In this document: in pieces, positions 916 through 33,920 of the stretch
Position numbering within the stretch: position 1 is the stretch's first letter
How the letters are laid out: each line of letters starts with the position of its first letter
DNA from: a virus
Direction: 5' to 3' (one strand)
DNA: 64,000 bases
IMG/VR virus record: IMGVR_UViG_3300017989_005036
Coordinates: 1-64,000 of that record
Notes under the pieces: model-generated
Databases searched by the model: none
Seen by the model: the letters and a program-made list of their open reading frames with translations, nothing else
Told to the model about the DNA's origin: nothing
Made by a program: the position numbers and the translations under genes

Positions 916-996
916 GGGAGTACTGGGCATTGGCGAGCCCAAGTAGCTGTAACCTACCCGTAGTATGCTGTGGCGGTTCGACTCCGTCTGCTCCCA
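916..996 (+). tRNA. tRNA-Tyr (GTA)
   Basis: The acceptor stem pairs 916-922 with 989-995. The anticodon loop reads CTGTAAC (anticodon GTA), followed by a class II variable arm of about 13 nt and a T arm with TTCGACT. The discriminator is A, and no CCA is encoded. This is one of two Tyr(GTA) genes placed side by side. Confidence 0.85.
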
Positions 997-1026
997 CTTT
1001 GGTCTTTTACAATTTAATGATAATTT

Positions 1027-1108
1027 GGCGGCACTGGGGTGTGGGAACCCACCGAAGCTGTAACCTTCGTGCTCATAGAGATAGGCGGTTCGATTCCGTA
1101 TGTCGCCA
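1027..1108 (+). tRNA. tRNA-Tyr (GTA), second copy
   Basis: The acceptor stem pairs 1027-1033 with 1101-1107, and the anticodon stem CGAAG/CTTCG encloses loop CTGTAAC (GTA). It has a long variable arm, T loop TTCGATT and discriminator A. Its sequence differs clearly from the first copy outside the loop, so this is not a recent duplication. One T-stem pair (49-65) appears mismatched. Confidence 0.8.
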
Positions 1109-1115
1109 CTCAACA

Positions 1116-1163
1116 GACAACCAAAAAAGGTTGTTTGTTGAAAGACAGCCTTTTTTGGTTGTC
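1116..1163. repeat. 15-bp inverted repeat between tRNA genes
   Basis: The arms 1116-1130 and 1149-1163 are perfectly complementary and enclose an 18-nt loop. No T-run follows the second arm, so this is not a standard terminator. It lies between two tRNA genes and may act as a processing or stabilising hairpin in the polycistronic tRNA transcript. Confidence 0.6.
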
Positions 1164-1168
1164 TAAAT

Positions 1169-1315
1169 GGGGGAGTGGTGAAACTCACTACTGCTTTACA
1201 ACCTTGGACAGGCAACTGTCCCATTCATGAAAAGCATACAAACGGCAAACACGACATCCTTGTAAAGATGTTGCCCGAAAGGGCATTGTAGGTTCAAATC
1301 CTACCTCCCCCACCA
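1169..1315 (+). tRNA. tRNA gene interrupted by a 59-nt insertion in the D loop
   Basis: The acceptor strands GGGGGAG (1169-1175) and CTCCCCC (1305-1311) pair perfectly and are followed by encoded ACCA. The T arm (1288-1304, TTCAAAT), a strong variable arm (GCCC-GAAA-GGGC) and an anticodon arm (ACATC/GATGT) are all present. The D arm becomes normal (GTG-AAAC-GGCAAA-CAC, like the neighbouring tRNAs) only if about 59 nt (1185-1243) are removed. The insertion is flanked by AAAC on both sides and contains a 6-bp hairpin with a GCAA loop. The anticodon loop appears to have 8 nt (CTTGTAAA), so identity is uncertain; GTA (Tyr) is the best guess. It may be a pseudogene, a tRNA with an unusual intron, or another tRNA-like RNA. 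Confidence 0.5.
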
Positions 1316-1316
1316 T

Positions 1317-1391
1317 GGAGAGTGAGCTAGTGTGGTCATTCAGCGTCTGTTTGAAGCACAGAAGAAATCGGTTCGATTCCGGTACTCTCCA
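1317..1391 (+). tRNA. tRNA-Phe (GAA)
   Basis: The acceptor arms (1317-1323 and 1384-1390) are perfectly paired. Anticodon stem TCTGT/ACAGA encloses loop TTGAAGC (GAA). The variable loop is short, the T loop is TTCGATT and the discriminator is A. It lies 25 bases upstream of the EF-Tu start codon. Confidence 0.9.
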
Positions 1392-1415
1392 CTACTCACA
1401 GAAAGGAAAGGAACG

Positions 1416-2615
1416 ATGAGTACTCAAGAAAAATTCGATTGTAGTAAGCCACATGTGAATGTGGGAACCATTGGTCATATTGACCATGGCAAAACAACCC
1501 TAACCGCAGCAATACTTGCTGTTCAAGCTGAAAAAGGTTTGGCAACAAGTAAGTCTTACAAAGACATTGCCAAAGGTGGAACATTTCGTGATGAAAGTAA
1601 AACCGTTACGATCATCACTTCACATGTGAATTACGAAACGAACGACAGGCACTATGCACACATCGATTGTCCCGGTCATGCTGACTATGTCAAAAACATG
1701 ATTACTGGGGCAGCACAAATGGACGGAGCTGTTTTGCTGGTATCGGCAGCAGATGGCCCGATGCCTCAAACACGTGAGCATATTTTGTTGGCTCGACAGG
1801 TCGAAGTTCCAGCACTCGTTGTTTTTCTGAATAAGTGCGATCTGGCCGATGAAGAAATGATCGAACTTGTGGAAATGGAGACCCGTGAACTCTTGACTAA
1901 ATACGGGTTTGATGGAGAAAATGTTCCGGTGATTTATGGAAACGCCAAAGGAGCACTGGAAAACCCCAGTGACCCGGAAGCAGCAAAGTGTATCACCGAA
2001 TTGATGGATGCTTTGGACTCCTACATTGGTATTCCTGAGCGTGAAACAGAAAAGCCATTCCTTCTTTCGATTGAAGATGTTCACACCATCGAAGGTCGGG
2101 GAACTGTGGCAACAGGAAAAATTGAGCAAGGTCGTGTTCGTGTTGGCGATGATGTCCAAATCGTTGGCTTGAAAGATGACACCCTCGACACAGTTTGTAC
2201 TGGTGTTGAAATGTTCCATCGTCCTCTGGACGAAGGGCTTGCTGGTCATAATGTTGGAATTTTGCTGAGAGGTGTTAAGAAAGAGGATATTCAGAAAGGC
2301 CAAGTTGTGGCTGCTCCGAAATCCATTCAACCTCACACAAAGTTTCGAGGACGGGTTTATGTGTTGGCGAAAGTTGAAGGTGGAAGACATACACCATTTT
2401 TTGATGGTTATCGACCACAATTCTTTTTCCGCACAACTGATGTAACGGGTTGTGCCAACATGGTTGGCGATGTCGAAATGGCAATGCCCGGTGAGCACGT
2501 TGATCTAGATATCGAACTTGGTAAGCCAGTTGCCATTGAAACTGGCAGCCGATTCGCTATTCGAGAAGGCAGCAAGACCGTTGGTTCTGGTATTGTTGTT
2601 GAAGTGCAGGAATGA
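1416..2615 (+). CDS. tuf: Elongation factor Tu
   Basis: Full-length translational GTPase (399 aa, close to the 393 aa of E. coli EF-Tu) that delivers aminoacyl-tRNA to the ribosome. Visible motifs are the P loop GHIDHGKT (residues 20-27), DCPGH (84-88), NKCD (139-142) and conserved domain II/III stretches ([23 protein letters not shown]). Switch I is unusual: the near-universal RGITI is KTVTI here (62-66), keeping the Mg-binding Thr but losing the Gly-Ile bond. The G5 region has NAK where SAL is usual. The start is ATG 1416 behind GGAAAGGAA; longer in-frame extensions run into tRNA-Phe. It lies inside the tRNA cluster, probably co-transcribed with it, and ends just before a large palindrome. 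Confidence 0.96.
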
Positions 2616-2621
2616 ACTAAA

Positions 2622-2657
2622 TGAAAGTGCAACTTTCAATTGAAAGTTGCACTTTCA
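2622..2657. repeat. 36-bp perfect palindrome after tuf
   Basis: The two 18-base halves (2622-2639, 2640-2657) are exact reverse complements, and each half is itself a small inverted repeat around GCA/TGC. As RNA it would fold into a long hairpin. It sits between the EF-Tu stop and tRNA-Leu(CAG), and no T-run follows, so it may be a processing or stability element or a protein binding site. Confidence 0.75.
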
Positions 2658-2661
2658 ATAT

Positions 2662-2738
2662 GGCACAGTACGCAAACGGCAAAGCGACTTGATTCAGAAT
2701 CAAGTGATTGTTTGTGGGTTCGACTCCCACCTGTGCTA
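2662..2738 (+). tRNA. tRNA-Leu (CAG), short variable loop
   Basis: The acceptor stem pairs 2662-2668 with 2731-2737, including G1-U72. Anticodon stem CTTGA/TCAAG encloses loop TTCAGAA (CAG). The T arm is GTGGG-TTCGACT-CCCAC and the discriminator is A. The variable region is only about 9 nt, without the long arm expected for bacterial Leu tRNAs. The D arm (CGC-AAACGGCAAA-GCG) matches Leu(TAG) at 8153. Confidence 0.8.
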
Positions 2739-2775
2739 TTTTGTTACTTTGTTCAAGTAAAAGAAGGTAATCAAA

Positions 2776-2994
2776 ATGAAAAAATGGTTCTGTAAATTTA
2801 TTTGTGATTATTGCGGGAAGGAAGAAATAACAAATGGATTAAAAACTCCTGAGAATTAGAAAACAGCAAATGAATCTTTTGTAGAACATCACAGTGATCT
2901 TGTTGAAAACCAAGAACATCATTCCTGTGATAATTCTGATTGTTTAAAAAGATTCAAAGAACATGTAGAATCGAATAGTCTACAACTTAACTAA
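2776..2994 (+). pseudogene. Zinc-finger-like small gene with an in-frame TAG
   Basis: ATG 2776 opens a frame interrupted by TAG at 2857-2859 (after 27 codons). The same frame then continues without further stops to TAA 2992-2994. The two parts together look like one small zinc-binding protein (CDYC in the first part, HHSCDNSDC in the second). Either it is a decayed gene with an amber mutation or the TAG is read through. No tRNA with anticodon CTA is visible in the window, and TAG is used as a normal stop elsewhere. Confidence 0.45.
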
Positions 2995-3000
2995 AAATAT

Positions 3001-3073
3001 GGCGGCGTAGCCCAACGGCAGAGGCAACGATTTTAAGAGTCGTCCAGTGTGGGTTCGAATCCCACCGTCGCTA
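3001..3073 (+). tRNA. tRNA-Leu (TAA), short variable loop
   Basis: The acceptor stem pairs 3001-3007 with 3066-3072 (G1-U72 again). Anticodon stem ACGAT/GTCGT encloses loop TTTAAGA (TAA). The variable loop is 5 nt, the T arm is GTGGG-TTCGAAT-CCCAC and the discriminator is A. The body is class I although the anticodon reads the Leu codon UUA. Confidence 0.8.
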
Positions 3074-3090
3074 CTTTAAGGCAGGAAAAC

Positions 3091-3216
3091 ATGTCACAAG
3101 AAAAGAAAATTGACGAAAAGGAATTAGAAAAACGCTGTTCTGAAAATGTCGCAGCTCTAAGACGACGTTTGCATAAGAGAATACGACAAATGAGAATAGC
3201 TACAAGAAGAAATTAA
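3091..3216 (+). CDS. Hypothetical basic peptide, 41 aa
   Basis: A short frame from ATG 3091, preceded by GGCAGG, to TAA 3214-3216, lying exactly between two tRNA genes. The N-terminal half is Glu/Lys-rich and the C-terminal half is Arg-rich (LRRRLHKRIRQMR), so it could bind nucleic acid. No family recognised. Its fit between the tRNAs supports a real gene. Confidence 0.45.
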   Translation: MSQEKKIDEKELEKRCSENVAALRRRLHKRIRQMRIATRRN

Positions 3217-3220
3217 ACAT

Positions 3221-3304
3221 GTCCGAGTGCTGGAACTGGTAGACAGGTGCGGTTGAGGGCCGCATGCCTTAAATGGCGTAGGGGTTCGACTCCCCTCTCG
3301 GATA
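3221..3304 (+). tRNA. tRNA-Leu (GAG)
   Basis: The acceptor stem pairs 3221-3227 with 3297-3303 (G1-U72). Anticodon stem TGCGG/CCGCA encloses loop TTGAGGG (GAG). It has a genuine class II variable arm, T loop TTCGACT and discriminator A. Confidence 0.88.
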
Positions 3305-3349
3305 CTTAATTGGATCAGTTGTTTCTCGGTTGAGAAATTGGAGCAAAAG

Positions 3350-3511
3350 ATGCGTGAAAATGGTTTGTATTGGGTTGAAATACATAAAGAATGGACGATA
3401 GGTGATTTTGATTCCAATATGAACAGTTGGCTTATCGTTGGAAGTGATGAGTCATTTAAAGACGAAGATTTTGATACAATAGGGAAACAGATCAAACAGG
3501 ATGTTGAATGA
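3350..3511 (+). CDS. Hypothetical protein, 53 aa
   Basis: A small gene from ATG 3350 with a GGAG ribosome site 5-8 bases upstream, ending at TGA 3509-3511. The product is acidic with several Trp residues (LYWVEIHKEW, SWLIVGSDE). It looks like a soluble small domain, but I do not recognise it. Confidence 0.55.
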   Translation: MRENGLYWVEIHKEWTIGDFDSNMNSWLIVGSDESFKDEDFDTIGKQIKQDVE

Positions 3512-3535
3512 TCCAAATTATTTATGGAGGTTGAT

Positions 3536-3802
3536 GTGACTGTAAATTACTACAAACAATGCACACTGAGGAAAACATTAAATCCAACCACAACAAGAAC
3601 TCAAGTTGCTTGGATTCCTGAAAAGTATGCATCTGAAGGCAAAGTAATCAAAATCAGAAATGAAGATGATCAATGGGATGATGGTTGGGTTGTGCTTAGC
3701 AACGGTGACACAAAAAGAAGTGAAAAACAACTTCCAGACTATCATGCGATGATTAAAGGTCACAGGAAAAAGACCGGAGATGCATTGCCAAAGAATCAAT
3801 AA
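3536..3802 (+). CDS. Hypothetical protein, about 88 aa
   Basis: The frame begins at ATG 3524, but GTG 3536 follows a GGAGG sequence at good spacing and is the preferred start. The product has a basic N-terminus with Thr repeats, then a WIPEKYA segment and WDDGWVVLSNGD. This compact beta-rich piece resembles small SH3-like regions found in phage proteins. Function unknown. It is followed by AAGGAG and the zinc-ribbon gene, so the two are probably co-translated. Confidence 0.6.
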   Translation: MTVNYYKQCTLRKTLNPTTTRTQVAWIPEKYASEGKVIKIRNEDDQWDDGWVVLSNGDTKRSEKQLPDYHAMIKGHRKKTGDALPKNQ

Positions 3803-3814
3803 AGGAGTAAAACA

Positions 3815-4027
3815 ATGTTTGGAATGCATGTTCCAGACCCAATAGAACGAGGTGAAATACGGGCCGAAAGTTGGTATTTCGACAATGTAAAAAACGGGGT
3901 TGCTACATGTGTTTGTGGCAAGCAATTCAAACTTGATGAGGGAGACTTTGTTTCCCCAGACCCATACGCACCCCCTGTTTGTCCTGATTGTTTTCAAGAA
4001 TGGTTTGACTCAATTCAAAAGGAATGA
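3815..4027 (+). CDS. Small zinc-ribbon protein, 70 aa
   Basis: It starts at ATG 3815 behind AAAGGAG. It contains two Cys pairs (CVCG at about 32-35 and CPDC at about 56-59) in the arrangement of a zinc ribbon. The partner is unknown; such proteins in phages often bind nucleic acid or modify transcription. The stop (TGA 4025-4027) is immediately followed by the next gene. Confidence 0.65.
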   Translation: MFGMHVPDPIERGEIRAESWYFDNVKNGVATCVCGKQFKLDEGDFVSPDPYAPPVCPDCFQEWFDSIQKE

Positions 4028-4028
4028 C

Positions 4029-4313
4029 ATGTCTGTTCAATGTAAGTACGAATTAACTTTGAGGGCAAAAACAAGAGATATCACCGAAGAGGCTGGTGAA
4101 ATCGAAGACAACATCAACTCTTTCATGAAGAACATGGGATTTCAGGAAGAAATTACAATTGCCACAGACATCCCTTTGATGATGACAACCGACAGATTAT
4201 TGACAGAAAAAGAGCAACAAGAAGTCATTAACATGATGAACAAAACTCTTGTTGATCAAGGAAAAGAAAAGATGGAATGCTGCAACATTCGTTTGATGGA
4301 AGCAGCGAGATAA
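4029..4313 (+). CDS. Hypothetical protein, 94 aa
   Basis: ATG 4029 lies one base after the preceding stop. The protein is acidic in the first half, with a Met-rich middle (MMTTDRLLTEKEQQ), and ends with ECCNIRLMEAAR. It probably forms a helical ferredoxin-like small domain; no family recognised. Its stop TAA overlaps the next start (TAATG), so these genes form one operon. Confidence 0.6.
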   Translation: MSVQCKYELTLRAKTRDITEEAGEIEDNINSFMKNMGFQEEITIATDIPLMMTTDRLLTEKEQQEVINMMNKTLVDQGKEKMECCNIRLMEAAR

Positions 4314-4558
4314 TGAGCATTATGCCAGAACACCATAGAAGGTACGCTGTTGCTTGGAGTTTATACAAAGACGATTCACTAAGCGAACAGTCAAAATTAC
4401 TTCTTGAGCGTGAAATGGATGATGCACAAAACTATTTTAACTGGGACGAGTTTCAAGAATTCAAATTAACACTTCCGGGTTTTATGGAACATTGGGATGG
4501 AATGAAAGAGGAAGTATTATCTGAATTAGAAAAGCGTTTTGGTGATTTGGCGGTGTAA
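4313..4558 (+). CDS. Hypothetical protein, 81 aa, ends inside tRNA-Leu
   Basis: ATG 4313 overlaps the previous stop. The product is helical and acidic (LSEQSKLLLEREMDDAQ, LSELEKRFGDLAV). Its last codons and its TAA (4556-4558) lie inside the 5' part of tRNA-Leu(CAA), so tRNA processing would cut the mRNA at the stop codon. Function unknown. Confidence 0.6.
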   Translation: MSIMPEHHRRYAVAWSLYKDDSLSEQSKLLLEREMDDAQNYFNWDEFQEFKLTLPGFMEHWDGMKEEVLSELEKRFGDLAV

Positions 4559-4654
4559 GTGGAATTGGCATACCTGACTGGCTCAAGCCCAGTTGATGCG
4601 ATTAAATCTGAAACATGGTTTTGGTCGTTGCGGTTTCGAAAGCCGTCATCGCCA
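4549..4654 (+). tRNA. tRNA-Leu (CAA) with an exceptionally long variable arm
   Basis: The acceptor stem pairs 4549-4555 with 4647-4653. Anticodon stem ACTGG/CCAGT encloses loop CTCAAGC (CAA). The T loop is TTCGAAA and the discriminator is A. The region between anticodon and T arms is about 36 nt and can form a long stem with several G-U pairs; ordinary class II arms have 10-24 nt. This is one of two Leu(CAA) genes (the other is at 7565). Total length is 106 nt. Confidence 0.7.
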
Positions 4655-4677
4655 CTTTTAAAGGGTTTTTAAAACCA

Positions 4678-4824
4678 ATGAACAACACAAACAACATAGC
4701 GGCATGGATTGTCGGCATAGTGGTATTTGGGGGATTTTTCTTGGTGATTCTATTTTCCCATATTGCTGATATGAAAGAAGAACGAAGAAAAAGAGAGAAA
4801 GAACAAAAACTTATTGAACATTGA
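4678..4824 (+). CDS. Small single-span membrane protein, 48 aa
   Basis: It starts at ATG 4678 just after tRNA-Leu. After a short polar N-terminus comes a hydrophobic helix (about residues 8-28), then a strongly charged tail (KEERRKREKEQK). It is probably an inner-membrane peptide with a cytoplasmic coiled tail. Function unknown. Confidence 0.5.
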   Translation: MNNTNNIAAWIVGIVVFGGFFLVILFSHIADMKEERRKREKEQKLIEH

Positions 4825-4835
4825 CATTTGATGAT

Positions 4836-4908
4836 CTGGCGGGGTGGGAAGACACCCGGTTAGTTGGCCTGATCAACTGTAAATCTAACGTTGTCGAAAC
4901 GAACGCCA
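4836..4908 (+). other. tRNA-like remnant
   Basis: The segment is closed by TGGCG (4837-4841 region) with CGCCA (4904-4908). It contains a D-arm-like hairpin (GGGT/ACCC), a hairpin AGTTG/CAACT and a second possible anticodon stem GTTAG/CTAAC, but the acceptor and T arms are incomplete. I could not fit a regular tRNA. It may be a decayed Tyr-like gene or an RNA with another role. Confidence 0.3.
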
Positions 4909-4948
4909 TTTGGCGAAGAGGATTAGAGGTGGTCATCAAATGTCTTTT

Positions 4949-5033
4949 GGAAATGATCCGGCTGGATGAGGAGCCTGTTTTGAACACAGGTGGGCTGAAA
5001 TACGCCTTTTGGGTTCGAGTCCCAACGTTTCCG
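4949..5033 (+). tRNA. tRNA-Ser (TGA)
   Basis: The acceptor stem pairs 4949-4955 with 5026-5032. Anticodon stem CCTGT/ACAGG encloses loop TTTGAAC (TGA). It has a class II variable arm, T arm TTGGG-TTCGAGT-CCCAA and discriminator G, as expected for Ser. Confidence 0.88.
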
Positions 5034-5043
5034 CTTGAATTAC

Positions 5044-5132
5044 GGAAGAGCAAGCCGATTGGCGACGGCACCCGCCTCGAAAGCGGGCGAGCATGGTGAC
5101 ATGCCTTGGGGATTCAACTTCCTTCTCTTCCG
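5044..5132 (+). tRNA. tRNA-Ser (CGA)
   Basis: The acceptor stem pairs 5044-5050 with 5125-5131. Anticodon stem CCCGC/GCGGG encloses loop CTCGAAA (CGA). It has a long variable arm, T loop TTCAACT and discriminator G. Confidence 0.88.
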
Positions 5133-5134
5133 CT

Positions 5135-5207
5135 AGGTGGTCCCTTCGGGGTGGACCGAACGAGAGGTTACCGGGTCAGGTCGGAAACGAAGCAGCCCAG
5201 CCTCTTT
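5135..5207 (+). ncRNA. ffs: Signal recognition particle RNA (4.5S-type, short)
   Basis: The segment at about 5172-5198 carries the SRP domain IV signature: GGTCAGGT on the 5' side, a C-G-closed GAAA tetraloop and AAGCAGCC on the 3' side, matching the symmetric and asymmetric loops that bind Ffh. An outer stem (AGAGG with CCTCT) extends it. A separate 5' hairpin built on CCC-TTCG-GGG precedes it. The RNA lies between tRNA-Ser(CGA) and tRNA-Ser(GGA), so its ends are probably made by tRNA processing. At about 73 nt it is shorter than E. coli 4.5S RNA (114 nt). The exact ends are inferred. Confidence 0.85.
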
Positions 5208-5212
5208 ATTAC

Positions 5213-5297
5213 AGAGGGTAAGCGAATTGGTTAGCAGCCTCGTTGGAACCGAGGTGCCCTGAAATACGGGTTGCGGGTTCAAGCCCCGTGCCCTCTG
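5213..5297 (+). tRNA. tRNA-Ser (GGA)
   Basis: The acceptor stem pairs 5213-5219 with 5290-5296. Anticodon stem CCTCG/CGAGG encloses loop TTGGAAC (GGA). It has a long variable arm, T arm GCGGG-TTCAAGC-CCCGT and discriminator G. Confidence 0.88.
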
Positions 5298-5299
5298 CT

Positions 5300-5506
5300 A
5301 TGAAAAAATTGAAATCAATTTTATTAACAGAACAAGATGTTGAAAATTACAAACCAGTTATTGGGTCACAAATCGATGTAATTCTCGTACCTGAATCGTG
5401 TCGAGATACATTTTTTAAATCCAAAGCGTTCATGGCATTGTGGCCATGTGTTTGTAATTCTCCTGATAAACATGTTTTGTTCTATCAAAACTTCCAGAAA
5501 CAGTGA
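5300..5506 (+). CDS. Hypothetical protein, 68 aa
   Basis: ATG 5300 begins three bases after tRNA-Ser(GGA). The product has a basic start, a hydrophobic strand (SQIDVILVPES) and a C-terminal part with CVC and aromatic residues. It looks like a small alpha/beta domain; no family recognised. No clear ribosome site is visible since the tRNA occupies the upstream region. Confidence 0.5.
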   Translation: MKKLKSILLTEQDVENYKPVIGSQIDVILVPESCRDTFFKSKAFMALWPCVCNSPDKHVLFYQNFQKQ

Positions 5507-5565
5507 AAAAACATCGATCTGACTCGTATCAAGGACGAGCATCAACTTTTTTCAAGGAGAAAGAC

Positions 5566-6000
5566 ATGAAAGTGCGAGTTTGGAATGGTGATCAAAGTGA
5601 ATGTCTTGGAATTGGCGATTATGATGAAGATGTAGCTGTGTATTTTATTCACATGCCTGATGGCAGTCTTCGCTCTATATCAAATGCAGAGCAAGAGCCT
5701 ACACCAGACATGATTCCTGAAGGTGCACAGGTCATCAAATCAGACGACAATCCAAAGATTGTTTTGGAAAACGGCGAGGTTGTTTATGGTTGCCAGACTT
5801 GGTGGCATCCTCTCGAAAGAGAAGCTGAAATCATAAATAAACTTGCAGAAGTTGTTAATGAACAAACCATTCCAGAATGGCTTGAAAAGCCGAATGAATC
5901 TTTCAGTGGAAGAAAGCCTCAAGAGCTTCTTGAAAAAGGTGAATTCAGTCCATTTCTGGCAATGATTTATCAACTGAGAAGCGGAGAGCCCAGTTCGTAA
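5566..6000 (+). CDS. Hypothetical protein, 144 aa
   Basis: ATG 5566 follows AAGGAGAAAGAC, a strong ribosome site; an in-frame GTG at 5503 would add 21 residues but has none. The product has a beta-rich N-terminal half (MKVRVWNGDQ, VAVYFIHMPDGSLRSI) and a helical acidic C-terminal half with two Trp pairs. Family unknown. It is followed closely by a tiny leader frame and the next gene. Confidence 0.6.
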   Translation: MKVRVWNGDQSECLGIGDYDEDVAVYFIHMPDGSLRSISNAEQEPTPDMIPEGAQVIKSDDNPKIVLENGEVVYGCQTWWHPLEREAEIINKLAEVVNEQTIPEWLEKPNESFSGRKPQELLEKGEFSPFLAMIYQLRSGEPSS

Positions 6001-6014
6001 AAGGAGAAAACAAC

Positions 6015-6050
6015 ATGATTAAGTTCAATTTGGAGGATGGTTTCACTTAA
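6015..6050 (+). promoter_or_regulatory. Possible 11-codon leader with hairpin before the next gene
   Basis: A good ribosome site (AAGGAG) precedes ATG 6015, which opens an 11-codon frame. Its stop overlaps a hairpin (6047-6052 with 6059-6064) lying directly upstream of the ribosome site of the 6075 gene. The arrangement resembles a small attenuator or translational coupling device; no specific amino acid is enriched in the leader. Confidence 0.3.
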
Positions 6051-6074
6051 GGCTAAAACCTTAAGGAGAAACCA

Positions 6075-6470
6075 GTGCAAAAACGTTACATTCATCATGG
6101 TCTTCGTCACATGAAGACCACACAGGAACGTCGTGCAAACGGCAAAAGACATTTTTTAGAAATCGACGATTACAAAATCAAGATTCGACCAAAACGAAAC
6201 GCAACTAATCTCCCTGAAGCATGGGATGATTACTGGATCGATGTGCCGAAGTCTTGGAAAAAACACAGAAGAACACAGTACAAACAAAACAAGCATTCAG
6301 TTTTCTTCAATATGGTTGGTTATGGTGATCAATTCAAAATTGGTGATCGAACTTATCTAAAGAAGAAAAGTTGGTCAGGCGTGCCTTATATGGATGCGAT
6401 TGAAATTGAAACAGGAAAAGAAATCAATGTTGATTGGTACGCTTTTGTAGAGTGGCCAATTAGAAAGTGA
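6075..6470 (+). CDS. Hypothetical basic protein, 131 aa
   Basis: It starts at GTG 6075 after AAGGAG (an ATG at 6111 is a shorter alternative). The N-terminal 60 residues are rich in Lys, Arg and His. The rest is a compact beta-rich domain with GDQFKIGDRTYLKKKSW and a Trp-rich end (VDWYAFVEWPIRK). I do not recognise a family; charge suggests nucleic acid binding. Confidence 0.55.
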   Translation: MQKRYIHHGLRHMKTTQERRANGKRHFLEIDDYKIKIRPKRNATNLPEAWDDYWIDVPKSWKKHRRTQYKQNKHSVFFNMVGYGDQFKIGDRTYLKKKSWSGVPYMDAIEIETGKEINVDWYAFVEWPIRK

Positions 6471-6473
6471 ATT

Positions 6474-6653
6474 ATGACCACTGATTACAATGGTTATAGT
6501 TGGATCAAAGTTAAACGTTATAAGATGGACGAATCGCTTTCGTGGGAAGAGCGATACAAACAACTTGAACAACATCATGTTGAGGAAACAACTTTTCTGA
6601 TCAATGAAGTCAGAAAATTGGCTTCTCAACAAAATGGATCGGATAGAGCCTAG
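6474..6653 (+). CDS. Hypothetical protein, 59 aa, ends inside tRNA-Ser(GCT)
   Basis: ATG 6474 is four bases after the previous stop. The product is charged and helical (WEERYKQLEQHHVEE). Its TAG stop (6651-6653) overlaps the acceptor stem of tRNA-Ser(GCT), the same layout as the 4313-4558 gene with tRNA-Leu. Function unknown. Confidence 0.5.
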   Translation: MTTDYNGYSWIKVKRYKMDESLSWEERYKQLEQHHVEETTFLINEVRKLASQQNGSDRA

Positions 6654-6733
6654 GCAAATATTGGTTCGTTGCGACAGACTGCTAATCTGTTCCGGTGAAA
6701 TACCCGGTGCGAGTTCGATTCTCGTGGGCTCTG
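6645..6733 (+). tRNA. tRNA-Ser (GCT)
   Basis: The acceptor stem pairs 6645-6651 with 6726-6732. Anticodon stem ACAGA/TCTGT encloses loop CTGCTAA (GCT). It has a long variable arm, T arm GCGAG-TTCGATT-CTCGT and discriminator G. It completes a full Ser set with TGA, CGA and GGA. Confidence 0.88.
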
Positions 6734-6749
6734 CTTAGAAAGGAATGAC

Positions 6750-7466
6750 ATGATAATCAAAGGCAAACCATCTGGTGACGGCGAATGCTTCTGTTTTGAG
6801 GTTACAGAAGAGGAGTATCGTCGAGTTTGTGGTGACGAGTCATGGAAGCTCGAACTGGAAACTTTTGCCATCGACGACGAAGATGCCAGAGAATGTGGCC
6901 GTGAGCCAATTCTTCCATCTGAAAGATGTTGGCGAATTTACCCATCTGAAATCATGAAGGCTTTGAAGGTTGAACGAAACAAAGAAGTAGCTTTAGAAAT
7001 CAAAGTTCACAAAGAGAAATACCAACCAGATGAAGCTTTGGTTGCCAATGTTCGAGAATGGCTGGGAGAAGAAGGAATCAATCAGTTCCGAAAATGGAAA
7101 GAAGAACATGGAACTGTTTCTCCTGTGATTGGGGGTTTGATTCCTCATCCAGTTCATTTCCGGGAAGGAATGCATGTCAGGAACAAACTTAGAGAATTGA
7201 CCAATAATTCATGGACATCGCATGAATACGATGACCGTTGGACTTCTGTCATTGAAGAAGCGATCAGAACAGAGGCAGTTGAAATTGAAATCGAAAAGCT
7301 GAAGGAAGCTATTGACTATATTTCTAAAGTCAATAACCCTAAGCTCAAAGACCTTCGATGGATTGATGAGAATGGAGAAGAAGTTGAAGTAAGCAAAGAA
7401 CGAATGGAAGAATGGCGATTTATAGGACTTTCAAACACTATATTCGCTGAACACTATTTATTTTAA
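6750..7466 (+). CDS. Hypothetical protein, 238 aa
   Basis: ATG 6750 follows AGAAAGGAATGAC. The first 90 residues look like a beta-rich domain (FCFEVTEEEYRRV, RCWRIYPSEIMKALKV), and the rest is helical and acidic (IEIEKLKEAIDYISKV). Neither half is recognised. It is followed by a 26-codon frame and a tRNA, so it probably belongs to the tRNA-cluster transcript. Confidence 0.65.
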   Translation: MIIKGKPSGDGECFCFEVTEEEYRRVCGDESWKLELETFAIDDEDARECGREPILPSERCWRIYPSEIMKALKVERNKEVALEIKVHKEKYQPDEALVANVREWLGEEGINQFRKWKEEHGTVSPVIGGLIPHPVHFREGMHVRNKLRELTNNSWTSHEYDDRWTSVIEEAIRTEAVEIEIEKLKEAIDYISKVNNPKLKDLRWIDENGEEVEVSKERMEEWRFIGLSNTIFAEHYLF

Positions 7467-7476
7467 GGATTGGCTT

Positions 7477-7557
7477 ATGACGGAATTCAGGCGTCGATAT
7501 ACTGCACACATGGAGGCAAAAAGATTTGACAGAATTATAGAAGATATACTTGAATAA
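7477..7557 (+). CDS. Possible 26-aa peptide
   Basis: A short frame from ATG 7477 with AAGGAT upstream, ending at TAA 7555-7557 just before tRNA-Leu(CAA). It is basic at the start and acidic at the end. Too short to judge; listed since it has a ribosome site and fits between neighbours. Confidence 0.3.
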   Translation: MTEFRRRYTAHMEAKRFDRIIEDILE

Positions 7558-7564
7558 CAACCAC

Positions 7565-7648
7565 GCCGGAGTGGTGGAATCGGCAGACACGCCAGATTCA
7601 AGATCTGGTGCTCATTAGAGCGTGAGGGTTCAAATCCCTCCTCCGGTA
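7565..7648 (+). tRNA. tRNA-Leu (CAA)
   Basis: The acceptor stem pairs 7565-7571 with 7641-7647 (G1-U72). Anticodon stem CCAGA/TCTGG encloses loop TTCAAGA (CAA). It has a class II variable arm, T arm GAGGG-TTCAAAT-CCCTC and discriminator A. Confidence 0.9.
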
Positions 7649-7794
7649 TTGAACCATGTTGAACTCAGGGTTAGATACCTTGGTTCAAATCGATCATTAC
7701 ATCACGAATAAGTAATGGTTGATTTACAGCTCTTCGTGAGAGACTGATTTATGGTTCTTTAAATCATCCTCATTTATAATGAAAAATAAAATTT
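7649..7794. other. Non-coding structured gap
   Basis: The 146 bases have no plausible gene. They contain several complementary pairs: TTGAACCA (7649-7656) with TGGTTCAA (7681-7688), CATTAC with GTAATG, and CACGAA with TTCGTG. No tRNA could be fitted. It may be the leader of the 7795 gene or a decayed RNA gene. Confidence 0.3.
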
Positions 7795-8022
7795 ATGAAT
7801 CAAAAAACAAAAGCTATTGCTGAAGAATTAAATGAAGCATTTAAGAATGCCAATTTAACTAAAAATCAAACTACTATTGTCGGCATGGCCGATAATAGTA
7901 TTATTGTTTATGTTGAAAGAGGCGACAAATACACTGTTGAGCAAATCATCCAAAAGAACACTTCTTGGAATGAAGCAAAAATAGAGATCAAGGTTTTAGA
8001 TGGCAAAATTAAACCTCTTTAA
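7795..8022 (+). CDS. Hypothetical protein, 75 aa
   Basis: It starts at ATG 7795; no strong ribosome site is present. The product is a small alpha/beta protein (IVGMADNSIIVYVERGDKY, IEIKVLDGK) and reads like a complete domain. No family recognised. A second small frame overlaps its 3' end. Confidence 0.5.
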   Translation: MNQKTKAIAEELNEAFKNANLTKNQTTIVGMADNSIIVYVERGDKYTVEQIIQKNTSWNEAKIEIKVLDGKIKPL

Positions 8023-8152
8023 AGAAAGCATCAGGAAATATTTTGAACCGCTGACGAAATGATGGTTCTGGACATATGTCTTTCCTGCGATTGTAATTGT
8101 CTCGATGGTCTTAGTATACATCGAGGTATACAATCCCGAATTGATAAAATAA
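8000..8152 (+). pseudogene. Small membrane protein frame with an in-frame TGA
   Basis: ATG 8000 opens a frame with TGA at 8060-8062 after 20 codons. The frame then continues through a clear hydrophobic segment (FPAIVIVSMVLVYIEV) to TAA 8150-8152, directly before tRNA-Leu(TAG). If TGA were read as Trp the whole would be a 50-aa single-span membrane protein. TGA is a normal stop in many genes here, so decay by mutation is the simpler explanation. Confidence 0.35.
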
Positions 8153-8225
8153 GGCCCGGTACGCAAACGGCAAAGCGGTCTGATTTAGGTTCAGATGTCT
8201 GTCGGTTCGAATCCGACTCGGGCTA
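8153..8225 (+). tRNA. tRNA-Leu (TAG), short variable loop
   Basis: The acceptor stem pairs 8153-8159 with 8218-8224 (G1-U72). Anticodon stem TCTGA/TCAGA encloses loop TTTAGGT (TAG). The variable loop is 5 nt, the T arm is GTCGG-TTCGAAT-CCGAC and the discriminator is A. Confidence 0.82.
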
Positions 8226-19160: not shown

Positions 19161-19568
19161 TTAGCCTTGTTCTTCAATGTATTGTCTAATCGTATCGGTC
19201 GAGGCATCGCCTGTCGTGCAGACAAAGTATCCATCACTCCAAAACGTCTTCTCATTCCAGAAGTGCCGAGACAAGAATGTATCAAATTTCTTCCAGATAT
19301 GGAATGTTGATTGCGACTTCAACCGATTGACTATATCGAACGCAGACAAGGTTGGCGGTGCATCTACCAGAACGTGGATGTGATCTTTGTCCGTTTCGAG
19401 AACATCAATCGTAAAACCCGACTTCTCAGCGATCTCATAGAACAATCTCTTGATCTCATCATCAATTACCTTCGTCCAGAGCAATTTCTTACGATACTTC
19501 ACACAAAAGACGAAATGATATTTCATCAAGTATTTGCTGTGCGAGCCGTGATGATATTTTTTCTCCAT
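19161..19568 (-). CDS. tnpA: IS200/IS605 transposase TnpA (HUH Y1)
   Basis: 135 aa, typical for Y1 transposases that cut and rejoin single-stranded IS ends. The HUH metal site is visible as HIHVLVD (about 64-70), and the catalytic Tyr is in TIRQYIEEQ near the C-terminus (about 130). The N-terminal YHFVFCVKYRKKLL is conserved in the family. The enzyme looks complete and may be active. Confidence 0.95.
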   Translation of the reverse strand: MEKKYHHGSHSKYLMKYHFVFCVKYRKKLLWTKVIDDEIKRLFYEIAEKSGFTIDVLETDKDHIHVLVDAPPTLSAFDIVNRLKSQSTFHIWKKFDTFLSRHFWNEKTFWSDGYFVCTTGDASTDTIRQYIEEQG

Positions 19569-19648
19569 TTTGTCCTCAGAAATTTTGAGCCAACATACTA
19601 CATAATTATGCCCAAGAAGAATTATAGCATAATTGGTGGTAAAAAGGA

Positions 19649-20818
19649 ATGGCTCATTACACTTACAAGTTCAGACTCTATCCTAATAAAGAACAGCAAC
19701 GACGGTTCGCTGCTCACTTTGGTTGCGTCCGCTTTGTGTATAACCACTTCCTTGATGAACGTAAAACTGCTTATGAGCAAAATGGCGAGAGTCCAAACTA
19801 CTATGACCAAGCGGCAACGCTCACTAAGTTGAAGAAAGAAAAAACTTGGTTGAAGGAAACTAATAGTCAAGTATTGCAATTCTCGCTCAAATGTTTGCAG
19901 GCAGCATACAACAACTTCTTTGCGAAACGAGCGAAGTTTCCTCGTTTTCACGCCAAGAAAAACAAGCAATCGTTCACTATTCCACAACATGTCAAAGTTC
20001 AAGATGGCAAGTTGTATTTTCCGAAGTTTAGTGATGGAGTGAAAGTCAAGCTACATCGCCAGATTGATGGAGAAATCAAACATGCTACGGTCAGCAAGAA
20101 TTGTGCTGGTCAATACTTTGTCTGTATTCTTGTAGAACGAAACATCAAATCACTTCCCAAATTAAAGAGAGAAGTGGGAATTGATCTTGGTATTACTGCA
20201 TTGGCAACACCTTCTGTCGGCAAGGCGTATGAGAACATCCGACCTTACAAGACATTGCAACGAAAGTTGCGAAAGTTGGACAAGGACTTAGACCGCAAGG
20301 AACTTGGCAGCAAGAACCGAGAAAAAGCACGGCTCAAACTGGCTCGCCTACATAACAAGATAGCAAACATTCGTAATGACCACTTACACAAAGTTAGTCG
20401 CCAGATAGTTGATGAAAACCAAGTCATTTGTCTGGAAGACCTGAATGTGAAGGGCATGATGAAGAACCGTTGTCTTGCAAAATCAATCGCCGATGTATCG
20501 CTGTCGGAATTGGTTAGACAGATTGAATACAAGGCTGGCTGGTATGGTCGGCAAGTAATCAAAATAGATCGTTGGTTTCCGTCGAGTAAGATGTGTTCAT
20601 CTTGCGGATATGTGATGGAAACATTACCATTAGATGTTCGTTCGTGGTGTTGTCCTCGTTGTGAAAGTAAACATAACCGAGACAAGAATGCAGCGAAGAA
20701 TATCTTGGTTGAAGGAAAAAGAACCGTAGGAACTACGGAGTTAGCCTGTGGACTTGGCGTAAGACTTGAGAGCAATCGAAAGCGGCTAAGGGTGAAGCAG
20801 GAAGCCCCGACCCTTTAG
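19649..20818 (+). CDS. tnpB: TnpB RNA-guided nuclease
   Basis: 389 aa, full length for TnpB. The RuvC-like residues are visible in GIDLGITALA (Asp), ICLEDLNVKGM (Glu) and HNRDKNAAKNI (Asp). A zinc finger CSSCG...CPRC lies between the last two. The N-terminal FRLYPNKEQ and VYNHFLDERK are family hallmarks. TnpB uses an omega RNA made from the 3' end of its gene and the right end (here about 20700-20839) to cut the donor-joint target and favour IS retention. All catalytic residues are present. Confidence 0.95.
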   Translation: MAHYTYKFRLYPNKEQQRRFAAHFGCVRFVYNHFLDERKTAYEQNGESPNYYDQAATLTKLKKEKTWLKETNSQVLQFSLKCLQAAYNNFFAKRAKFPRFHAKKNKQSFTIPQHVKVQDGKLYFPKFSDGVKVKLHRQIDGEIKHATVSKNCAGQYFVCILVERNIKSLPKLKREVGIDLGITALATPSVGKAYENIRPYKTLQRKLRKLDKDLDRKELGSKNREKARLKLARLHNKIANIRNDHLHKVSRQIVDENQVICLEDLNVKGMMKNRCLAKSIADVSLSELVRQIEYKAGWYGRQVIKIDRWFPSSKMCSSCGYVMETLPLDVRSWCCPRCESKHNRDKNAAKNILVEGKRTVGTTELACGLGVRLESNRKRLRVKQEAPTL

Positions 20819-20940: not shown

Positions 20941-21254
20941 CGTGGGCCTACAGAATTTGTCCAACCTGCTTTACGTTGGTTGACACCAAGAATCTTCTCT
21001 CCAAAATATAATGAGGCGTAAAAGAAAAATATCAAAATTCGAAAAAGAAACCATGACGGACTGGTTGCCCGCAGGACAAAAGCCGCAATAACAAAAAATA
21101 CTCTGTCAACAGTGTCAATTGGTTCTCTGAATTTGTCTATTTGATTTTGAGCTTCTTTACGCCCCCAAGTGAACATGCCAAGTACATAAAGGCTAATCCA
21201 TAACCATGGATTATTCACATTAACGGTCATTTGTGACAGTTCTTCCAAATTCAT
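20937..21254 (-). CDS. Membrane protein, 105 aa
   Basis: ATG 21254 overlaps the Thg1 stop (TAATG); a second ATG eight codons later is also possible. Hydrophobic segments lie at about 17-28, 52-63 and 69-86 (WFLFRILIFFFYASLYFG). It lies in the minus operon between Thg1 and the interrupted small gene/RNA ligase. Function unknown. Confidence 0.6.
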   Translation of the reverse strand: MNLEELSQMTVNVNNPWLWISLYVLGMFTWGRKEAQNQIDKFREPIDTVDRVFFVIAAFVLRATSPSWFLFRILIFFFYASLYFGEKILGVNQRKAGWTNSVGPR

Positions 21255-22000
21255 TAGAGAAATTTCCTTACGAATTCACTGTATTCCTCTTTCATCGGAA
21301 GTTCAAACTCTCGCTTGACCCGACGACGTTGAGCAACAACTTCTTCTTTAGAAACCGGATTAAATGCCTGTTTCTCATATTGCTCCCAATAAAGTCCAAC
21401 ACCACGCTTCTGCCAGTTTGGAACATTATTGAAATTGATGCCATTATGGTGCAACAATTCGTTCTTGCTACTCACCGATTTGTTCAGAAGAGTGTTAGAT
21501 GCTGCTCTGGCACTTAATTGTTTTCGGAGAGTCCAGTAACAGTAAGAATTCAACGCATTCCTAGCTGCGTCTTCGTTTCTCCATCGAAAATAATCAACTA
21601 CCAAATTGGTATTAGGCAATTGAGAGATACGACAATCAAATGTTGCCACTTCTCCCATTGCCAAAGAGAATCTGGCACTCGCTTCACCTGCCAACGTGGA
21701 ATTAAGTTTCCTGAGTTTTCTGTTAAACAGATTCTCTCTCAAGCCAAACAGAAGTGAAATTTCATCACTTTCGGTATAAGCGTACACAATCTCAAAGCCG
21801 CAATTCATGAGAGCTTCTGTTGTGTCTACCATCATGTCACGAAAACGAACATCGAAAGGAACTTCAAAGTTGCCAGTTTTAGTCAGCTTTGTGAAACCAC
21901 GTCCATCGAGACGAGCAACCATGTACATGCCCGGCAAGACACATGCATCTGCTGCTGTCTCGAAGACACGCATTTTGTTGTCAAGTTCTTTGAACTTCAT
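21254..22000 (-). CDS. thg1: tRNA-His guanylyltransferase-like protein (Thg1)
   Basis: 248 aa. Thg1 adds nucleotides to the 5' end of tRNAs in the 3'-5' direction; bacterial/archaeal members (TLPs) repair truncated tRNA 5' ends. RLDGRGFTKLTK (about 29-40) and AYTESDEISLLF (about 74-85) are the two metal-binding carboxylate motifs. FNRKLRKLNSTLAGEAS and the C-terminal GIN...KRGVGLYW are also typical. The full-length layout with the Thg1 C-terminal part is preserved. No tRNA-His gene occurs in this window; together with RNA ligase and Pnkp, a role in tRNA end repair is plausible. Confidence 0.93.
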   Translation of the reverse strand: MKFKELDNKMRVFETAADACVLPGMYMVARLDGRGFTKLTKTGNFEVPFDVRFRDMMVDTTEALMNCGFEIVYAYTESDEISLLFGLRENLFNRKLRKLNSTLAGEASARFSLAMGEVATFDCRISQLPNTNLVVDYFRWRNEDAARNALNSYCYWTLRKQLSARAASNTLLNKSVSSKNELLHHNGINFNNVPNWQKRGVGLYWEQYEKQAFNPVSKEEVVAQRRRVKREFELPMKEEYSEFVRKFL

Positions 22001-32984: not shown

Positions 32985-33920
32985 TCATGAGAAGAAATCC
33001 TTTTGGTCTGCGTATTGAAACCCACAACGTCCAGCAAATGTTTTATCTGAAGTCTGATCGCCTACCATAATACACTGGCTTGGATCAAGGTGGTACTTCC
33101 ATATAAAATATGCACCGCTGCCGGGATGTGGTTTGCGGCAATAACATTTCACTGGCGGAACGGAATGGGGACAATACTTATACTCAATATCAAAACCCAA
33201 CAGTTCATTGGTCTTTTCAAAGCAATCAATAGCTACATCTTCATCAAGACCCTTAGAAATTGCTGACTGATTACTGACCCCCAATAGGAGGTAGCCATCA
33301 TCTTCATACTTGGCCAACACTTTTTTTCGGTTAGGTAAGATTTCGACATGAGAAGGATCTTCTGGCCATTTTTTAGGACCAGTGGATCGACGCAGAGTGT
33401 CGTCATAATCCAACAGCAAAGCTTTGTTGGTCCAATGAGATGGATTCTTTCGCACAAATTTAACCACTTCGATTTCAGAAAAACCTTCTGTTTTTGCAGG
33501 TTTCTCAAACCGATTCTTGTAAGCAAAGATCACAGCAGGTGGAAATAAATTAGGGTCATTGATTTTTGATAACTCTGCTGCGTCTGCGATGCGACCAATA
33601 CGATCCATCATTCGAAGACACGCATTCATTTGAGAATCTGCAAGAGATGTATTTAAATAAACACAACGGACAGGAATACTAAGTCGTTTTCCAACAGCAA
33701 TGACTTCGGCACGTTGTTCGACAGTGCCATAAGTGTTGTCGAGTACAACTTTGTTTTCGCCATTCTTGAGAGCAATTTCAGCTTGTTTAACTACTCCTGA
33801 TAGGTTGCCACCAATTTTATCACGATTGAATCTTATGTAGCCCTCATTAACGAATCCTTCTGTAATGGTGGTTTTGCCCGCTGCCGGGTACCCCATGACA
33901 ATGACGATTTCCTTTGTCAT
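32985..33920 (-). CDS. T4-type polynucleotide 5'-kinase / 3'-phosphatase
   Basis: 311 aa with the same domain order and length as T4 Pnk (301 aa): N-terminal kinase with P loop GYPAAGKTT (about 10-18), C-terminal HAD phosphatase with LLDYDDTLRR (about 168-177), GVSNQS and VGDQTSDKTFA. It heals RNA or DNA ends, adding 5'-phosphate and removing 3'-phosphate, so that a ligase can seal them. With the RNA ligase at 18107 it forms the classic tRNA-repair pair that lets phages survive anticodon nucleases. It starts at ATG 33920, three bases after pncC. Confidence 0.95.
   Translation of the reverse strand: MTKEIVIVMGYPAAGKTTITEGFVNEGYIRFNRDKIGGNLSGVVKQAEIALKNGENKVVLDNTYGTVEQRAEVIAVGKRLSIPVRCVYLNTSLADSQMNACLRMMDRIGRIADAAELSKINDPNLFPPAVIFAYKNRFEKPAKTEGFSEIEVVKFVRKNPSHWTNKALLLDYDDTLRRSTGPKKWPEDPSHVEILPNRKKVLAKYEDDGYLLLGVSNQSAISKGLDEDVAIDCFEKTNELLGFDIEYKYCPHSVPPVKCYCRKPHPGSGAYFIWKYHLDPSQCIMVGDQTSDKTFAGRCGFQYADQKDFFS

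Follow-up and report, generated by a model that had tools for sequence, protein, structure and literature searches.

A gap between two serine transfer RNA (tRNA) genes in the viral record IMGVR_UViG_3300017989_005036 from IMG/VR, of whose 75,420 bases the first 64,000 nt are considered here and referred to as the window, harbors a shortened signal recognition particle (SRP) RNA hairpin. It occupies positions 5162-5207 of the plus strand and consists of domain IV mounted on an 8-bp outer helix, as judged from a match to the Rfam family RF00169, the predicted fold and its z-score. The hairpin is bordered by tRNA-Ser(CGA) upstream (5044-5133) and tRNA-Ser(GGA) downstream (5213-5298), both found by ARAGORN on the same strand. 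Folding of the 79-nt gap between them yields two hairpins, 5138-5158 and 5162-5206, the first being a separate plus-strand 5′ hairpin located 3 nt upstream of the SRP element. The original prediction suggested an SRP RNA at 5135-5207 embedded in a tRNA-Ser array; the array is as described and the assignment holds for 5162-5207, while 5135-5161 turned out to be the separate hairpin plus spacer. The truncation of the SRP element and its recurrence in numerous tRNA-rich phages had not been anticipated.

The predicted Ffh-binding core with its GAAA tetraloop, GGTCAGGTCGGAAACGAAGCAGCC (5174-5197, plus strand), is an exact copy of the core motif, including the domain IV internal loop GGUCAGG/AGCAGCC, and combines the helix GGGU/GCCC, the internal loop CAGG/AGCA and a 3-bp stem closed by the tetraloop (UCG-GAAA-CGA, that is, the short stem with GNRA loop typical of domain IV), with an ACC bulge preceding the outer helix. 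In its degenerate form (≤3 mismatches) the motif had a single occurrence in the window and none in 100 shuffled sequences, giving a chance expectation of zero, and a fortuitous match was therefore rejected. The 46-nt hairpin folds at −18.1 kcal/mol (z −2.6) into the shape expected for domain IV; the z-scores of the whole tRNA-SRP-tRNA stretch (−0.7) and of the 79-nt gap alone (−1.15) are uninformative. The Infernal search proposed for verification retained, out of 4227 Rfam families, the small bacterial model Bacteria_small_SRP (RF00169; 33.7 bits, E-value 2.1e-5, or 7.5e-7 within the 75,420-base record), though short of the 40 bits set as its gathering score. The match spans model positions 23-68 of 97 only, the remaining rod being absent, and neither this comparison nor the separately folding 5′ hairpin revealed an extended rod with the distal docking site beyond domain IV in the window. 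Domain IV is the part of SRP RNA found in all kingdoms (PMC5807370). Judged by its sequence, the element is thus an SRP RNA by virtue of the universal domain and not a full member of RF00169.

Pattern scans covering 2.9 million viral contigs detected SRP cores in about a dozen further uncultivated tRNA-rich viral records of up to 497 kb. Well-paired cores came from loci L007 (158 kb), L009 (90 kb), L012 (203 kb), L013/L019 (73/107 kb), L014 (46 kb), L025/L028 (497/372 kb), L029 (290 kb) and L116 (350 kb), as well as from L015, L017, L122, L010 and L004; in L081 (120 kb) the core is present but its loop is atypical. In 14 records, including that of the window, the tRNA load ranges from 7 to 66 per record, and the association of well-formed cores with tRNAs is pronounced (17/30 vs 3/58; Fisher p about 1e-7, hand tally). 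In seven loci (window, L007, L009, L012, L014, L015 and L122) a tRNA starts 5-16 nt past the core, so that the placement fits the release by tRNA processing that had been anticipated. Phage hallmarks were found as Gp23 capsid protein (records of L007, L009 and L081), terminase (L007, L017, L025/L028 and L015) and UvsX (L009, L013/L019 and L025/L028), and the viral status of the remaining records is based on IMG/VR classification together with tRNA load. Kinship at the protein level unites the window with L007 and L009, L012 with L014, L019 and L081 (partly via tRNA matches), and L015 with L122; hence the records are not all independent and appear to represent roughly five to eight groups. Full-length matches at loci without tRNA (L003, L005, L006, L011, L016 and L020) and matches to the large SRP model (L027, L034 and L037) were excluded because they probably stem from bacterial DNA or from the edges of prophages, L026, L031, L035, L038 and L084 were left out of the count, and most other matches of the relaxed scan, having no stem pairing, were ascribed to chance.

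The search patterns prescribed the protein-binding loop, whose invariance therefore tests nothing, and conservation was assessed from the flanks, 13 nt on each side of the core in 14 loci. Own flanks pair with a mean energy of −8.7 kcal/mol compared with −3.2 kcal/mol for swapped ones, and none of 20,000 flank-swap permutations equaled own-flank pairing, which is likewise true for the nine mini forms alone. The own partner ranked first for the window, L007, L009, L014, L019, L081, L116 and L004. Because junction lengths move the helix register between phages, this permutation serves as the evidence of compensatory change, and it indicates upkeep of the helix across homologues. The statement that the domain IV core is intact is borne out by the exact motif, the covariance model score and pairing preserved across phages that differ in sequence. 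When the loop was left unconstrained, GNRA was present in nearly all tRNA-linked matches, L081 being the exception.

Two architectures may be distinguished. Full-length matches to the small SRP model are provided by L025, L029, L010 and L004, longer and near full-length rods being present in phages of 290-497 kb, while in the mini forms, comprising the window and its relatives, domain IV has a short outer helix. Five loci (window, L007, L009, L014 and L081) possess a separate 5′ hairpin that terminates 0-3 nt upstream of the domain IV hairpin, its counterparts in the latter four loci differing in sequence, and in the window, L007 and L014 the whole mini unit fits into the 73-90 nt that separate two tRNAs. 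L019 takes the form of a mini rod of 21 bp, whereas L012 consists of the bare hairpin. L014 combines tmRNA (transfer-messenger RNA) with SRP RNA. The tmRNA gene observed at L063 (6382-6751) shares its tRNA array with an SRP RNA, one phage thus carrying tRNAs, tmRNA and SRP RNA.

A gene of the SRP54 family (Ffh) was found in none of the 15 records searched, most of which are fragments (L025, L028, L029, L116, L122 and L081 were not in this set), although all 14 control genomes were positive, and the host Ffh is therefore the candidate partner. The 29-nt tip of the window hairpin is identical in cellular SRP RNAs of 8 genomes in a search over 84,980 species, all of them Planctomycetaceae-type or Akkermansiaceae; these cellular RNAs are full rods, and the stretches retrieved with them contain no tRNA. 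This weakly hints at a host from Planctomycetota or Verrucomicrobiota, bearing in mind that one short sequence could converge.

The sequence, structure, genomic setting, recurrence and conserved pairing of the phage SRP hairpin are established by these data, and from them we infer its transcription, processing, Ffh binding and benefit to the phage. We consider it fairly probable (about 0.6) that the hairpin is a functional shortened phage SRP RNA gene, derived from the tRNA array and serving host Ffh. It would be transcribed together with the surrounding tRNAs, which host RNases would excise, thereby freeing the SRP RNA: RNase P cleavage at the 5′ end of tRNA-Ser(GGA) would generate its 3′ end, and 3′ processing of tRNA-Ser(CGA) would liberate the other side, giving a product of at most about 79 nt that includes the 5′ hairpin and domain IV. 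The internal loop is expected to bind host Ffh at the M domain, and the GAAA tetraloop to assist FtsY docking, so that the phage RNA would supplement or substitute the host SRP RNA and sustain co-translational membrane insertion of phage proteins. The abundance of membrane proteins put forward in the original prediction is weakly supported, a strongly hydrophobic 19-residue stretch being present in 8/82 script-called open reading frames (ORFs). The SRP RNA may be viewed as part of a phage-supplied translation set of stable RNAs and factors, such as the large tRNA sets, EF-Tu and, in L014, tmRNA. We favor a phage-supplied SRP RNA that is working or semi-working, because longer forms exist elsewhere, GNRA is kept and the company consists of tRNAs, tmRNA and EF-Tu; the near full-length rods of the 290-497 kb phages in particular argue for working SRP RNAs.

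The score of the window hairpin lies under the RF00169 gathering level, so that a default Rfam scan misses it; the deficit is due to the absent remainder of the rod, and of the 11 control genomes with a match 9 were above the cut-off, some controls thus also remaining below 40 bits. Several observations weigh against the functional interpretation. No promoter is recognizable, the promoter and terminator scan performing no better than chance. In L015 the flanks are unpaired and form no outer helix, and in L018 an inner pair is broken. L081 (12140-12185) retains an 8-bp outer helix and the intact Ffh-binding loop, with TTAACC replacing the GNRA tetraloop, and may be a candidate form unable to dock FtsY. 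Finally, in E. coli the Ffh-FtsY pair triggers GTP hydrolysis at the distal site of SRP RNA (PMC5454536), and it is this site that the mini form lacks, the tetraloop site being kept. The 5′ hairpin might stack on domain IV and so rebuild an arm with a second site. An extended version, in which such stacking restores the distal arm of a distinct class of mini SRP RNAs in large tRNA-rich phages, released by tRNA processing and taking over host Ffh so as to retune targeting to phage proteins, is tentative and rather doubtful as a whole.

The absence of the distal site is also the starting point of the main rival, which is unlikely in our estimation: the mini RNA would act as a decoy or inhibitor binding host Ffh, perhaps in a stalled Ffh-FtsY complex whose cycle is incomplete without this site, with the consequence that host SRP is titrated and insertion of host membrane proteins is slowed. 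The mini forms indeed lack the rod that their tip-sharing cellular relatives possess, activation of the GTPases in E. coli requires the distal region (PMC5454536), and L081 has kept the Ffh-binding loop despite loss of the GNRA tetraloop. However, a pure decoy has no need of GNRA, which nearly all forms preserve, other tRNA-rich phages encode longer rods, and the neighboring genes aid translation rather than block it. Less probable still is that the phage restores SRP RNA along with tRNAs after host defense or post-shut-off decay has destroyed stable RNAs, mechanistically a special case of the supply of a functional SRP RNA. In line with this scenario, the window encodes a polynucleotide kinase-phosphatase-like protein and Thg1, the arrays of L012 and L010 have RtcB nearby, and L122 and L015 carry Ro60 and RNA ligase, respectively, but RNA-repair genes are common among large phages, SRP RNA is otherwise stable and we know of no defense nuclease that cuts it. 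That the hairpin is a remnant of a host SRP gene acquired with tRNAs, or an SRP-like tRNA spacer hairpin, is very improbable, since, despite the truncation, the score below the Rfam level and the imperfect appearance of L015 and L018, chance expectation for the core is zero, well-formed cores cluster with tRNAs and the helices vary in sequence but stay paired across several phage groups, so that the flank-pairing test largely refutes this reading.

In comparison with known systems, the window RNA shares with the bacterial small SRP RNA (4.5S type, RF00169) the domain IV core, GNRA loop, ACC bulge (asymmetric loop) and internal loop, but measures 46 nt, compared with about 95-115 nt for the rod, has no distal helix, and is placed between tRNAs after a separate 5′ hairpin in a phage without detected Ffh. 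With the bacterial large SRP RNA (RF01854) it has domain IV in common, and its 5′ hairpin superficially resembles those of the Alu domain, though no helix 5 links it to domain IV. The Alu domain of the large RNA also has 5′ hairpins. Comparable in genomic logic are the tRNA arrays and tmRNA encoded by huge phages (Al-Shayeb 2020, PMC7162821), where large phages likewise supply elongation factors and stable RNAs for translation; the main text of that paper covers tRNAs, tmRNA and EF-Tu and does not mention SRP. The open-access literature searched contained no description of a phage SRP RNA (subscription papers and preprints lay outside the search), and SRP is likewise unmentioned in further articles dealing with huge phages and clusters of viral tRNAs. 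Among 50,697 deposited phages, BLAST with consensus cores and with the sequences of the window, L025 and L009 returned no convincing copy, although this kind of search is weak for such a short motif. “Acinetobacter phage MD-2021a” (L070, CAKLQF020000006.1) proved to be a bacterial chromosome labeled as phage (recA, lpxA, lpxD, fabZ), and short unannotated records of Listeria, Enterococcus, Escherichia and “Bacteriophage sp.” are probably similar bacterial DNA. SRP is a core cellular machine. A recurrent and often stripped phage SRP RNA without Ffh suggests a takeover reaching from codon reading to membrane targeting, tRNA-rich phages probably supplying their own delivery RNA during infection, and the mini form offers a natural minimal SRP RNA for asking if SRP RNA really needs its rod and distal site.

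As to the broader setting, the tRNA cluster of the window includes Leu (five anticodons), Ser (CGA, GGA, GCU and UGA, the latter at 4949-5032 called by eye), two Tyr and one Phe, and contains the phage EF-Tu gene (1413-2615, plus strand; Pfam GTP_EFTU, D2 and D3). UvsX, gp32, a UvsW-type helicase, a DnaB-like helicase and phage DNA polymerase constitute the T4-like genes of the record, on which bacterial contamination was rejected; identity over 8.8 kb with a second IMG/VR record (L008) agrees with this, though both could have one common source. tRNAs with long variable arms (Leu, Ser and Tyr) plus Phe nearly fill the clusters of the window (916-8225) and of two related phages, L061 (6294-14213) and L062 (5717-14676), and the window and L009 both cover the full sets of Leu (five) and Ser (four) anticodons. 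A tRNA-like match of 36 bits at 1169-1312, in which 65 nt are inserted in the D-arm region, was missed by ARAGORN. Thg1 (tRNA-His guanylyltransferase) and the polynucleotide kinase-phosphatase-like protein (AAA_33 + HAD) are encoded in the window at 21254-22000 and 32985-33920 as genes for RNA repair or editing, and Ro60/TROVE protein and RtcB RNA ligases occur in or near tRNA arrays of phages bearing SRP RNA at L122 (1042-2682), L060 (14147-15490) and L138 (3402-4574). The window also carries an IS200/IS605-type element (19161-20818) composed of TnpB (OrfB, 19649-20818) and, on the opposite strand, a small transposase-like ORF recognized by eye (19161-19568).
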